From an uncultured Gammaproteobacteria bacterium (GTDB lineage Bacteria; Pseudomonadota; Gammaproteobacteria; GCA-002705445; GCA-002716945): a DNA stretch of 32,953 bases. The notes under the pieces were generated by a model. It was not told the origin of the DNA. It was given only the letters and a program-made list of their open reading frames with translations, and made no database searches. A program made the translations under genes and the position numbers. The stretch lies in the NCBI GenBank assembly GCA_913045115.1, contig CAJWPJ010000009.1, positions 1 through 32,953 of the forward strand, read 5' to 3'. Numbering within the stretch: position 1 is the first letter of the stretch; the number at the start of each line of letters is the position of its first letter. Shown here piece by piece: positions 5,761-11,351 of this stretch.

Positions 5761-6566
5761 CAAAGAATGATTTAATTAATGACGCATTTGAAAATGGCAT
5801 AAACGAAAAAAATAAAAGTGAAGTGGAAAAAGAAGTTCAGAAAACTATATCTGACTTAAACCTTGGAAAAACAAGAGTGGCTGAAAATGTAAGTGGAATA
5901 TGGCAAGTAAATGAATCTGCAAAAAAAGCAATACTTTTATCATTCAAGCTTAATGCCAATAAGTGTATAGAGACAAACTATACAAAGTTCTATGATAAGG
6001 TTGATTCTAAATTTTCTCATACATCTGAAAAATACTTAAAAGAAAATAATATAAGAGTAGTTCCACAAGCAATTGCACGTTACGGTTCTTTTATAGACAA
6101 AAATGTTGTTCTCATGCCCTCTTTTGTAAATATTGGAGCGTATGTTGGAGAAGGAACTATGGTAGATACTTGGGCTACAGTAGGGTCATGTGCGCAAATA
6201 GGTGCAAATGTTCATTTGTCAGGTGGAGTGGGTATTGGTGGCGTATTAGAGCCGCTTCAAGCTTCGCCTACAATCATTGAGGATAACTGCTTCATAGGAG
6301 CTCGCTCTGAAGTTGTCGAAGGTGTTATAGTCAGAAAAAATTCTGTAATATCAATGGGTGTTTTTATAGGCAAAAGCACTAAGATTTATGATAGAGAAAC
6401 TAAAACCGTGAGTTATGGTGAAGTTCCCGAAGGATCTGTTGTTGTATCGGGGTCACTTCCATCAAAAGATGGATCATGTAATTTGTACTGCGCCGTCATT
6501 GTAAAAAAAGTTGACGAGAAGACTTTAAGTAAGGTGGGTATTAATGAAATTCTGCGAGAAGCATAG
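5757..6566 (+). CDS. dapD: 2,3,4,5-tetrahydropyridine-2,6-dicarboxylate N-succinyltransferase
   Basis: A 269-residue DapD, close to the 274 of E. coli. It transfers succinate from succinyl-CoA to tetrahydrodipicolinate in the diaminopimelate/lysine pathway, which supplies both lysine and the peptidoglycan crosslinking residue. The helical N-terminal domain (about 1-100) is followed by hexapeptide turns of a left-handed beta-helix ([38 protein letters not shown], stated here only by its family landmarks). Asp137 in MVDTW is the probable catalytic acid. The end, [22 protein letters not shown], is the normal DapD C-terminus. The ATG overlaps the mltF stop by 4 bases. Its last 26 bases overlap the convergent ligA. 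Confidence 0.95.
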
Positions 6567-8544
6567 CTAGTTCTTTTTCATATAGTATTTTAATGCCATA
6601 GCTTTGTGCCTTTTCCAGTTTACTCCCAGGTTTATTTCCACAAATAAGTAAATTAGTTTTCTTTGAGAGGGTATTTGATATCTTATATCCATTAGCTTCT
6701 AAAATCTCTGATAAATCTGATCGTTTATAGTTATCAAAACTTCCTGTTATTACAACACTTAATAGATTTTCGGTTTTATTTTTTTTATAGATTACATCTA
6801 TTCCGGATGATATTAAATTAGTTATATTTGATACATTCGAGCTGTCCTTAAAAAATGAAATAATATTTGTTGCAACAACTGGGCCAATATCATTTATTCC
6901 TACTAAATCATCATATTTACATCGGAGTAATTTATTAAGTGACTCAAACTCTGTGGCTAGAGCTCTTGCAGATGATTCTCCAACCTCTTTGATACCTAAT
7001 GCATATATGAATTTGCTGAACATAACTTTTTTTGAAGAATCAATAGATAACAAATAATTTTTGATTGATTTTTCACCAACTCGATCTAATTTCTGAAAAT
7101 CACTCTCAGTTAAAGTGAATAAGTCTGAGCTTCTCAAAATTATTTTTTTGGATACCAATTCCTTGATTATTTGATTTCCGATCCCTTGAATATTCATAGC
7201 TTTTCTTGCAATAAAATGAATAATAGATTGTTCAATTTGCGGTATACATTTTTTATGGTTGGTGCATTTATAGGCTACCTGATTATCAATTTTTATAAGT
7301 GTGCTATTGCAACTTGGACATTTCTTAGGTGGTATTATTTTTTTTACACTTTTTCTTTTACTAAGTTCAACTCTATCAATATCTGGTATTACATCACCTG
7401 CTCTTTTTACATACACATAATCACCTATATGAATATCTTTTAAGCTTATCTCGGAAAAATTATGCAAGGTTGCTCTTGCAACTTTAACTCCACCAATATT
7501 AATCGGTTCTAACTCTGCAACAGGTGTGATAGTACCTGTCCTTCCCACCTGGTAAGTAACGCTCAAAATACGCGATAATGATTCCAAAGACTTAAATTTA
7601 TATGCAATAGCCCATTTTGGGGATTTAGATGTAAAGCCAAGTGATTTATACTTGTCAAAAGAGTTAACACGATAGACAAGACCATCGATTTCATACGGCA
7701 TGCTTTCTCTCTGTTTACTCATTTCCTCAAAATAAGATAAACACTCATTGATACCTGAAAGGACTCTTGAGTATTTATTAATGGGAAAGCCTATATCATT
7801 AAAATGAGCGAACAAGTCACTATGCTTTTTAAAGTTGATAAATGAATCAGTCTGAGCAATGCCGTGTAAAAATAATCTCAATCTTCTAGAGTTAGCTACA
7901 GCAGGATCTAATTGCCTAATGCTGCCTGCTGCAAGATTTCTAGGGTTCGAGTATTCTTTTTGCTTTTTTATACGCAATTCTTGATTGATATCGGTAAAAT
8001 CTTTTTTATCAATAAAAACTTCGCCTCTAATTGAAAATTTTTTTGGTAAAGAGGCATTATCAATTACCATCGGTAAAGATTTTATAGTTTTAACATTCTG
8101 AGTAACATCCTCTCCCACATAGCCGTCACCACGAGTTGTGGCATTGTGATAGAGGCCATTTTCATAGCTAATATTCACAGCTAATCCATCAAATTTAGGT
8201 TCGGCAAACATCTCTATATCATTGATATTATTATTGGTATTTAACTTATCATAGAAATCTATAAAATCATTTTCTGTTGCAGCATTAGACAAAGATAACA
8301 TTGGTTGTTCATGTTCTCTCTTTTCAAAGTAATCAAGTAGTTGCGAGCCAACTCTTTGCGTGGGAGAGCCCTCAGAAATAATAGACGGATACTTATTTTC
8401 AATATCCTTGAGCTCTTTATAAAGATGATCGTACTCAGTATCGCTAATAACCGGTGAATCATATGTATGGTAAAGAAGATTATGCTTATTTATAACATCT
8501 ATTAATTTAAGATACCGGTATTTAATTTTTTTTTCCTTTGTCAT
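6541..8544 (-). CDS. ligA: NAD-dependent DNA ligase LigA
   Basis: A 667-residue bacterial NAD+-dependent ligase that seals nicks in replication and repair. Domains in order are: the NAD-binding Ia domain (about 1-65); an adenylation domain with the nucleophile Lys117 in [11 protein letters not shown]; the OB fold ([16 protein letters not shown]); a four-cysteine zinc finger (CPSC...KCTNHKKC); helix-hairpin-helix repeats ([40 protein letters not shown]); and a C-terminal BRCT domain (about 590-667). Length equals that of E. coli LigA. It follows smc after 23 bases. In Pseudomonas and many relatives zipA sits between these two genes; it is absent here. The stop lies inside the last codons of dapD on the other strand. 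Confidence 0.97.
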
Positions 8545-8567: not shown

Positions 8568-11351
8568 TTAATTAGACTTTGCCATGTCTAAGGCATCCTC
8601 AACATTAACTGACACTAGTTTAGATACTCCGGCTTCTCTCATAGTCACGCCTGATAGTACATCCGCTATCTTCATAGTTGATTTGTTATGAGTTATAAAA
8701 ATAAATTGCACGGATTCAGACATTTCTTTTACAACGTTGCAGAAACGCTCATTATTTGCCTCATCTAGTGGTGCATCGACCTCATCGAGCAAACAAAATG
8801 GAGCTGGGTTAATACGAAAAATAGAGAAAACAAAAGCAATACCTGTTCCTGCCTTTTCGCCACCAGATAAAAGATTCAGATTCTTAACTAATTTGCCTGG
8901 TGGTTTAGCCATGATATTGACTCCAGTATTGAGTAAATCATTGTCTGTCAATTCTAAGTATGCTTTACCGCCTCCAAATATTTTTGGAAAAAAATACGAT
9001 AAATTAGTATTGATTGAATCAAAGGTATTTTTAAATTTTGCTTTTGTCTCTATATCAATTTTTTTTATAGCTGACTCTAAAGTTTCTACAGACTTAACAA
9101 GGTCATCATATTGTTTATCAAGATATATTTTACGTTCCTCATGCTCTTTTAACTCGTCAATTGCTGCTAAATTAATAGCACCAAGTTTATCTATTTTGAT
9201 TTTGACTTTATTGAGATGATTTTCATGATCTGTAAGAGAAGTCTCATCATCTGATTTGATTGATTGAAGTATTAGGTTTTTATCAAAGTCTGTATTATCA
9301 AGTAGTGAAGACTTATTTGTTTTGATTTCAGTCAATTCGATATTAATGGCGTTAATTTCATTACTTATTTGATTTTGACTCAGTGATAACTTCGCAATAA
9401 GCTGTTCATTTTCTCTAATCTTATTATCTATGGAAGTCATTTTATCTTGCGATGATGTTAAAGACTGGTCCTTCGTTTTTTTCTTGTTTATTAAGGTATT
9501 AAGTATTTCTTTAGTATCTGTTCCTATAGTAGTATTTGAGTTAGATAAAAGTTCCTGTTTTCTGATAGTGAGAACCTCAATATTAGCTTTGAGCCTATTA
9601 AGATTTTCATCTGAGGATACCGTCTGTGTTTCGAGTGTAGAAATAGCAACATTATTAGAATTTAGTTTTTCAGATATTTCATTATACTTCCAATTTAACT
9701 TGTCATGAGTTTGTTTTAAGTCAATTTTTTCTTTTTCAAGTTTACTTTTTTGTGTTTCAAAGCTCTTAAGATTTGATTGATATTGTTTAAGCATTTGCTC
9801 GCTATTAATTATTTTCGCGTGGTAGCTTTTAATATTATTATTTAGATCTTGTATCTGCTTATCATGAGATTTATTATTGTCTTTGATTTTTATAATAATT
9901 TTTTTAAATTTATCTAAAAGACTATTTAAACTTGAAAGAAGTGTATCTTTTAGATTGCTGTCAAGTTTATCTGAATGTCTCTCAAAATCTATTTTAAGAT
10001 TAATAAGATCTTTCTGATAAGACTCTGATTGTGTTAAAAGCTCAATATGAATATTCGTATCATGCGAATCAGTACGTTTGTCTGATTGATTATCTAATCT
10101 CTTTTCAAGTAAGGAAATATTTTCTGAGTATGACTCAATTTTAGATTTTTCTAATTCGATCTCTTTCTCTAATTCTATTTTATCCGATAAAAACTTATTA
10201 AAGTGTGATTGCCAATTCTGTAATGAAAATGAAGACTCTTTAATGTCATTATTTATTTGATTAATCTCTTTCGAGAGTTTTTCTTTTTCTTTTTTTTGGT
10301 TAACAATTGATTGCTTATTCTCAGATTGTTTTTTGATTAGTAAATTGCACTCAACATTTGCATTATCTATGTCTTTGTTAATATCTTCAATATTATCTTT
10401 TTTACTAGTTTCAATTTGCTCTGTATATTCTATATCTTTTTCAGCTCTAGCAATTTCTGCGGCGATTTGAAATGACTCTGATTGCAATTTATTATAAACT
10501 AATTGTTCATCATCTCTTTTTGATTTCAATTGATCTATAGTATTGTTAAATCCTGTCATTTCTGAATCATATTTATCTTTTTGAAGTAGATAGTTACTTT
10601 CTCTTTTCTTGACAGCATCAAAAGATTTATCATAGTTCATTATTTTTTTACTGATAATCTTTATCCTTAGAGCTTCTTCTTCTTTTTTTAAGGCTCTATA
10701 TGACTCTGCATCATTAGCCTGCTTCTGAAGTTTAGTGAGAGAGGAGTTTATTTCTCGCATTATGTCTTTTAAGCGACTTAAATTTTCTGATGTATGCTTT
10801 AACCTAAGTTCTGTCTCTCTTCTTTTTTCTTTGTATTTACTTATACCTGCTGCCTCTTCGAGGTATGTTCTTAGCTCTTCAGGCTTAGAGTCAATAATTT
10901 TTGAGATCATACCTTGTTCAATTATTGCGTAGCTTCTTGGGCCAAGACCAGTCCCTAAAAAAACTTCTCTTATATCTTTTCTTCTACATCTCGTATTATT
11001 TAAATAGTAATTTGAGTTGCCATCACGATTAGCATCTCTCCTAATCAAAATTTCATTAAATTTTGCAAATTTTGAATCTAATTTGTTCTGTGAATTATCA
11101 AATACGAGCTCTATACTTGCATGGCTAACTTCTGACCTTGACGATGATCCGGAGAAAATTACATCATCCATTGTATCGCCTCGAAGGTTTCTCGCTGATG
11201 ATTCTCCCATCACCCATCTTATAGCATCTATAATATTAGATTTACCACATCCATTTGGGCCCACTATTCCTGTGAGATTACTGGGGAAGTTTAAGGAAGT
11301 GGCATCAACGAACGTTTTGAAGCCTGATAATTTGATTTTGGATAATCTCAT
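8568..11351 (-). CDS. smc: Chromosome segregation ATPase SMC, apparently without a hinge domain
   Basis: A 927-residue SMC, about 240 shorter than typical bacterial SMCs (about 1160-1190). Both halves of the ABC-type head are intact: Walker A GPNGCGKSN (31-39), the GLGPRSYAIIEQGMIS region (about 135-150), the signature LLSGGEKAGTGIAF (827-840) and Walker B FCLLDEVDAPLDE (852-864), with THNK after it. Between them, from Pro157 to Pro789, there is no proline; between 170 and 723 only two glycines occur (267 and 610). The whole stretch reads as Lys/Glu/Asn/Ser-rich coiled coil. The globular, glycine-rich hinge of about 150-180 residues that normally dimerises SMC is not visible. SMC with ScpA/ScpB organises and segregates chromosomes; ScpAB are not in the window. 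The frame is unbroken, so it is not a pseudogene by that test. Confidence 0.92.
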   Translation of the reverse strand: MRLSKIKLSGFKTFVDATSLNFPSNLTGIVGPNGCGKSNIIDAIRWVMGESSARNLRGDTMDDVIFSGSSSRSEVSHASIELVFDNSQNKLDSKFAKFNEILIRRDANRDGNSNYYLNNTRCRRKDIREVFLGTGLGPRSYAIIEQGMISKIIDSKPEELRTYLEEAAGISKYKEKRRETELRLKHTSENLSRLKDIMREINSSLTKLQKQANDAESYRALKKEEEALRIKIISKKIMNYDKSFDAVKKRESNYLLQKDKYDSEMTGFNNTIDQLKSKRDDEQLVYNKLQSESFQIAAEIARAEKDIEYTEQIETSKKDNIEDINKDIDNANVECNLLIKKQSENKQSIVNQKKEKEKLSKEINQINNDIKESSFSLQNWQSHFNKFLSDKIELEKEIELEKSKIESYSENISLLEKRLDNQSDKRTDSHDTNIHIELLTQSESYQKDLINLKIDFERHSDKLDSNLKDTLLSSLNSLLDKFKKIIIKIKDNNKSHDKQIQDLNNNIKSYHAKIINSEQMLKQYQSNLKSFETQKSKLEKEKIDLKQTHDKLNWKYNEISEKLNSNNVAISTLETQTVSSDENLNRLKANIEVLTIRKQELLSNSNTTIGTDTKEILNTLINKKKTKDQSLTSSQDKMTSIDNKIRENEQLIAKLSLSQNQISNEINAINIELTEIKTNKSSLLDNTDFDKNLILQSIKSDDETSLTDHENHLNKVKIKIDKLGAINLAAIDELKEHEERKIYLDKQYDDLVKSVETLESAIKKIDIETKAKFKNTFDSINTNLSYFFPKIFGGGKAYLELTDNDLLNTGVNIMAKPPGKLVKNLNLLSGGEKAGTGIAFVFSIFRINPAPFCLLDEVDAPLDEANNERFCNVVKEMSESVQFIFITHNKSTMKIADVLSGVTMREAGVSKLVSVNVEDALDMAKSN

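Follow-up and report, generated by a model that had tools for sequence, protein, structure and literature searches.

The SMC protein of a small marine gammaproteobacterium, and of all examined relatives in its order, lacks the globular hinge by which the two halves of this near-universal chromosome organiser are normally linked. The gene (Table 1) lies in the window, i.e. the whole stretch of 32,953 nucleotides that was analysed. The hinge is regarded as one of the features that define SMC machines. Literature searches found a hinge-less SMC described once, in marine Actinobacteria (PMC12153180), and found no report from Gammaproteobacteria. The present analysis adds a second phylum to the range of the hinge-less variant, links the variant to ScpAB and shows that the hinge was lost more than once.

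Table 1. Features of the smc region, in window positions; residue numbers refer to the SMC protein
Feature	Position	Strand	Basis
Hinge-less smc	8568..11351	minus	ORF, ATG start, 927 aa; TIGR02168 839 bits; PF06470 silent
ATPase head, N-terminal half (residues 1-165), Walker A	10857..11351	minus	PF02463 and PDB SMC heads 5xg3/3zgx
N-arm coiled coil (residues 170-427), helix break 310-317	10071..10844	minus	AlphaFold2 model
Predicted tip (residues 428-496) at the hinge position, with helices 431-458 and 465-493	9864..10070	minus	AlphaFold2 secondary structure
C-arm coiled coil (residues 497-765), helix break 602-612	9057..9863	minus	AlphaFold2 model
ATPase head, C-terminal half (residues 766-920), signature and Walker B	8592..9056	minus	PDB SMC heads
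ligA (NAD-dependent DNA ligase)	6541..8544	minus	ORF; directly downstream of smc

Heads, partners and the missing hinge

The preliminary description of this DNA stated that the smc frame is intact and that both halves of the ATPase head have complete motifs, and both statements hold. The minus-strand frame is open from its ATG over 927 codons, and the terminal halves contain, as in a canonical SMC_prok_B protein, Walker A (GPNGCGKS, residues 31-38), the signature (LSGGE, 828-832) and Walker B (FCLLDE, 852-857). The equivalog model TIGR02168 (SMC_prok_B) scores 839.2 bits against a cut-off of 567.35. Its match is split in two: residues 2-432 correspond to model positions 1-429 and the remainder to positions ~699-1180, and the middle of the model finds nothing in the protein. 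The closest solved structures are bacterial SMC heads, and in a structure comparison of the AlphaFold model condensin, Smc5/6 and SMC heads rank first.

The helix that follows the signature reads LSGGEKAG[T/V]GIAF in 19 of 19 SMCs of f1, the family of this protein (residues 828-839; positions 8835-8870, minus strand). In nearly every other gammaproteobacterial SMC that was examined the sequence is LSGGEKA[L/M]; f1 adds two conserved glycines to the signature helix. Judged from the sequence, the family-wide change to LSGGEKAG[T/V]G could alter ATPase behaviour.

A search for scpA and scpB had been proposed, and the genome encodes both partners of a canonical SMC. The genes for ScpA (PF02616, 126 bits) and ScpB (PF04079, 158 bits) are intact and adjacent to each other on another contig, and ScpA is present in 19 of the 20 hinge-less genomes tested. 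The trpS gene that adjoins scpA (L142 4748-5752, G000:C3) has one in-frame stop after ...KVPVGDDQK, which is an amplification error, an assembly error or the mark of a broken gene. In the f1 loci examined ligA is near and downstream of smc. It lies within about 1 kb of smc in L060, the nearest hinge-bearing relative, and at most of the loci in the other lineages with short SMCs. This conserved neighbourhood supports the orthology of the genes.

The central claim of the preliminary description, that the protein has no hinge domain, is borne out by three kinds of profile search, each checked against positive controls. The amino acid counts that accompanied it are exact: the stretch between residues 157 and 789 contains no proline, and glycine occurs just twice between residues 169 and 724, as Gly267 and Gly610. 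The corresponding region of L060 has several prolines and many glycines. The search with the SMC_hinge profile PF06470, also proposed earlier, finds no hinge in residues 400-620 or elsewhere in the protein. PF06470 has no match anywhere in the genome in a six-frame search, and a hinge encoded by a separate gene was accordingly rejected. The profile is equally silent in all 25 genomes of the order that were searched. It matches in 286 of the 370 sampled Gammaproteobacteria, and in L060 at residues 523-619. The silence of PF06470 alone is no proof, because the profile also misses normal-length SMCs in a Caulobacter control and the f223 protein L254. A class-specific hinge HMM, for which 29 gammaproteobacterial hinges were used, scores 171-191 bits on five hinge-bearing proteins kept out of its construction, among them the one missed by Pfam, and detects the hinge of L254 at E 4e-59. 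On 44 short SMCs its score is at most 5.5 bits, and on the 927-residue protein 4.3 bits (E 0.06). A profile-profile comparison with the hinge by hhalign returns a probability of 0.4%, compared to 99.9% for the positive control. A diverged hinge overlooked by Pfam is ruled out by the class-specific profile and its controls. On these sequence comparisons, the central domain of canonical SMC_prok_B proteins is truly absent.

The protein thus shares with canonical SMC-ScpAB (TIGR02168; B. subtilis Smc; L060) the two head halves, the antiparallel arms, ScpA and ScpB, and the ligA neighbourhood. It differs in that the hinge is gone, the head halves are 500 rather than ~744 residues apart, and a two-helix tip is predicted between the arms. 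The distance between the head halves is 499-506 residues throughout f1 and 740-767 in hinge-bearing gammaproteobacteria.

The predicted tip and the joining of the arms

The AlphaFold2 model, calculated with 21 sequences, is of medium confidence (mean pLDDT 77, pTM 0.43). It predicts the long antiparallel coiled-coil arms of a canonical SMC, with helices 170-309 and 318-427 in the N-arm and 497-601 and 613 onward in the C-arm. The position of the hinge is occupied in the model by a block of two helices with a pLDDT of ~65-83. The predicted tip comprises ~69 residues, whereas hinge-bearing SMCs have ~170-200 residues at the same place. Its length is constant to ~2 residues across 19 orthologues, and hydrophobic positions are regularly spaced in both helices and conserved across f1. 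The preliminary description regarded the centre of the protein as coil-like, possibly a minimal turn. The region has no hinge, but it is not a bare turn: two helices are predicted, and their length is nearly constant across the genera of f1. In the model the hairpin may fold back as a four-helix bundle or extend the rod. AlphaFold predicts a similar helix-loop-helix tip for an SMC of a second order (see below). A common ancestry of the tips found no support, because hhalign scores for pairs of lineages do not rise above those for unrelated coiled-coil segments.

Without the tip each arm would measure ~270 residues, compared to ~340 in a hinge-bearing SMC. Arms of 253-267 and of ~321-373 residues are functional in B. 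subtilis Smc (PMC5344682). The match to these lengths was given no weight, because ~270 sits at the edge of a range and depends on where the tip boundary is drawn. The modelled arms are interrupted at residues 310-317 (positions 10401-10424) and 602-612 (9516-9548), each break being ~110 residues from the tip. The C-arm break contains prolines in relatives. The paired breaks may form an elbow-like joint.

On balance, the protein is probably part of a functional SMC-ScpAB condensin that has lost its hinge and has a helix-turn-helix tip (residues ~428-496) in its place, the tips being linked by their hairpins. The smc product would be the cell's own SMC ATPase of SMC-ScpAB, and the heads, kleisin and kite would operate as usual. 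The slightly shortened antiparallel arms would end in helical hairpins that dimerise and join the two arm tips, closing a ring without a hinge channel. The complex would load on DNA and presumably extrude or translocate, without hinge-gated bypass of obstacles.

The preliminary description gave the hinge as thought essential for loop extrusion, which is an overstatement in light of published experiments. The zinc hook of Rad50 substitutes for the hinge of B. subtilis Smc with normal growth (PMC5344682), and Rad50 of fission yeast works with a hinge in the place of its hook (PMC6969161). A Wadjet core that lacks the segment from elbow to hinge cleaves plasmid DNA if it is held as a dimer by a disulfide, and does not bypass obstacles (PMC12647877). 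By analogy with the hook swaps and the Wadjet core, it seems that a link between the arm ends is needed rather than the hinge fold. The engineered JetC core of Wadjet (PMC12647877) is likewise an SMC ATPase without the elbow-to-hinge segment. However, it is man-made and requires the disulfide to dimerise, whereas the natural protein retains arms of ~270 residues and a tip of its own.

It is less likely, although by no means negligible, that the SMC functions with undimerised arm ends. The ATP-engaged heads and ScpAB would then be the sole contact, and the complex would be a half-ring or would open at that end in each cycle. Such an arrangement agrees with the poorly conserved tip sequence and with the absence from the tip of a known dimerisation motif, be it a hinge or a CxxC hook. 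However, B. subtilis Smc does not function with mutations in hinge dimerisation (PMC5344682), the Wadjet core is inactive once its artificial dimer link is reduced (PMC12647877), and the conserved length and hydrophobic stripes of the tip suggest that something is retained there.

Dimerisation along the arms, as a rod, or through the paired breaks, with the tip being only a capped turn, is unlikely. The equal distance of the predicted breaks from the tip would allow them to pair like an elbow, and hinge-bearing Smc has arm-arm contacts (PMC5526789). The AlphaFold model of the second-lineage protein has no such arm break, however, and pairing of the breaks cannot therefore be the common solution.

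It is very improbable that smc has turned into another SMC-like ATPase, for example a Rad50-like repair factor. The protein resembles Rad50/SbcC in being a coiled-coil ATPase with a small tip in place of a hinge; Rad50-like proteins are likewise hinge-less, and there are weak matches to Rad50 profiles. The heads are nevertheless of the SMC type, because the top Rad50 model reaches 45 bits against its cut-off of 700, compared to 839 bits for TIGR02168. The CxxC zinc hook that marks the Rad50/SbcC apex is absent, there being no Cys in residues 428-496. Furthermore, ScpA and ScpB are retained in the genome, the ligA neighbourhood is the same as in hinge-bearing L060, and the genome has no other long SMC_N protein above the cut-off that bears a hinge.

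The apex is reduced or channel-less in MukB and MksB as well. These proteins have long arms, a mini-hinge and different subunits (MukEF). The heads of the 927-residue protein, in contrast, belong unambiguously to TIGR02168.

Among the nearest known counterparts are the hinge-less SMCs of marine Actinobacteria. Sussfeld et al. (2025, PMC12153180) recognised them with the help of metagenome networks and AlphaFold models, as a clade that branches close to the base of the actinobacterial SMCs. The present protein has the combination that characterises them, SMC heads and a coiled coil without a hinge or a CxxC zinc hook, and is also oceanic. Unlike them, the proteins described here are gammaproteobacterial, belong to two or three further lineages, and have documented ScpAB partners. 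The 927-residue protein falls outside the actinobacterial clade in so far as its close relatives and L060 are titled Gammaproteobacteria.

Fixation and recurrence of the loss

The loss is fixed in the relatives of the organism, as the preliminary description had suggested might be checked. Independent single-cell genomes and MAGs contain 19 full-length orthologues of 926-944 residues, none with a hinge at this locus, and all complete SMCs detected in the order share the size class (open frames of 929-956). The two outcomes named beforehand as fatal to the claim, a central hinge and hinge-bearing close relatives at the locus, were thus not found. Mean pairwise identity among the 19 aligned orthologues is 87-88% in the heads (N-half 87%, C-half 88%), 41-63% in the arms and 38% in the tip, and the alignment is near-gapless throughout. 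The variability of the tip resembles that of the distal arms (38% vs 41% identity). Heads that are conserved, together with arms and a tip that have diverged while keeping their length, are expected if geometry is selected. The gene-wide dN/dS of smc is 0.04-0.13, and the gene is under purifying selection; in one close pair the tip has a dN/dS of 0.85, with few changes. Although the genome is a draft of 49 contigs, an assembly deletion, frameshift or decaying pseudogene is ruled out for practical purposes by the agreement in length across all independent relatives, the purifying selection and a six-frame genome search without any hinge.

The protein is not a lone oddity: besides its absence in marine Actinobacteria (PMC12153180), the hinge was lost on two or three occasions among Gammaproteobacteria with small genomes. 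Of the gammaproteobacterial genomes sampled, 79 gave no PF06470 match. A head query in these identified short intact SMCs in a further four families, f37, f153, f163 and f30, all with genomes of 0.9-1.3 Mb. The hinge-less SMC genomes outside f1, which belong to f37 and to a second order, measure 0.7-1.8 Mb overall. The second order (f30, f153, f163 and f222) was sampled with 121 genomes, 108 of which have an SMC. Its SMC frames are mostly of 729-843 residues, with 998-1010 in some genera; those that were examined have no hinge, and the long ones are products of internal duplication. In the order of f37, the f37 SMC is short (933-947), whereas f154 and f223 have full-length proteins (1134-1176) with a hinge. 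The others among the 149 SMCs of a phylum sample have at least 1134 residues, except for three shorter frames assumed to be contig-edge fragments.

Retention of the hinge in the 995-residue SMCs of f163 was ruled out, because these proteins contain internal arm-plus-tip duplications without a hinge. Duplicated SMCs of 995-996 residues are found in L219, L220, L221, L222, L223 and L236 (e.g. L219:358-3342). Residues 199-731 of the 732-residue G613 protein correspond to 472-994 of G630, and residues 1-582 to 1-707. The head-to-head distance is 569 in the duplicated protein, compared to ~306.

Trees of the SMC heads contain three well supported hinge-less clades but do not reject a single loss (AU p 0.45). 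The RpoB tree sets the second order apart from f1 and f37, and one clade of losers, and with it a single loss, is rejected (AU p 0.020). RpoB places f1 and f37 as sisters (98/95), in a tree without f154 and f223, whereas in the SMC-head tree f37 groups with hinge-bearing f154 (84/81), in agreement with the order assignment. The RpoB rejection and the grouping of f37 with f154 point to at least two losses of the hinge, and probably three. Besides f1, at least one other small-genome lineage, and probably two, thus have a hinge-less SMC. Some Gammaproteobacteria of ~1 Mb (G284, G250 and others) have no SMC head that could be found, which indicates that streamlining sometimes removes the whole SMC and not the hinge alone. 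A tentative extension of these results, held with rather less than even confidence, is that the proteins represent a natural class of hinge-less 'core' condensin that evolved repeatedly in streamlined ocean Gammaproteobacteria and does without hinge gating, its arm ends either having no stable dimerisation or being joined by a helical tip of an entirely new kind.

A natural hinge-less protein makes the purpose of the hinge directly testable. According to a recent proposal, the hinge serves as a gate through which obstacles are bypassed and does not belong to the extrusion motor (PMC12647877). Lineages with two or three losses, in which the heads, ScpAB and tight arm lengths were kept, are natural experiments on this proposal. 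The prediction is a condensin that would extrude and yet be incapable of hinge bypass, on chromosomes of ~1 Mb. The short natural arms, estimated at ~180 to 270 residues, could be used to test arm-length rules, and the modelled tip is a candidate for a new minimal dimerisation element.
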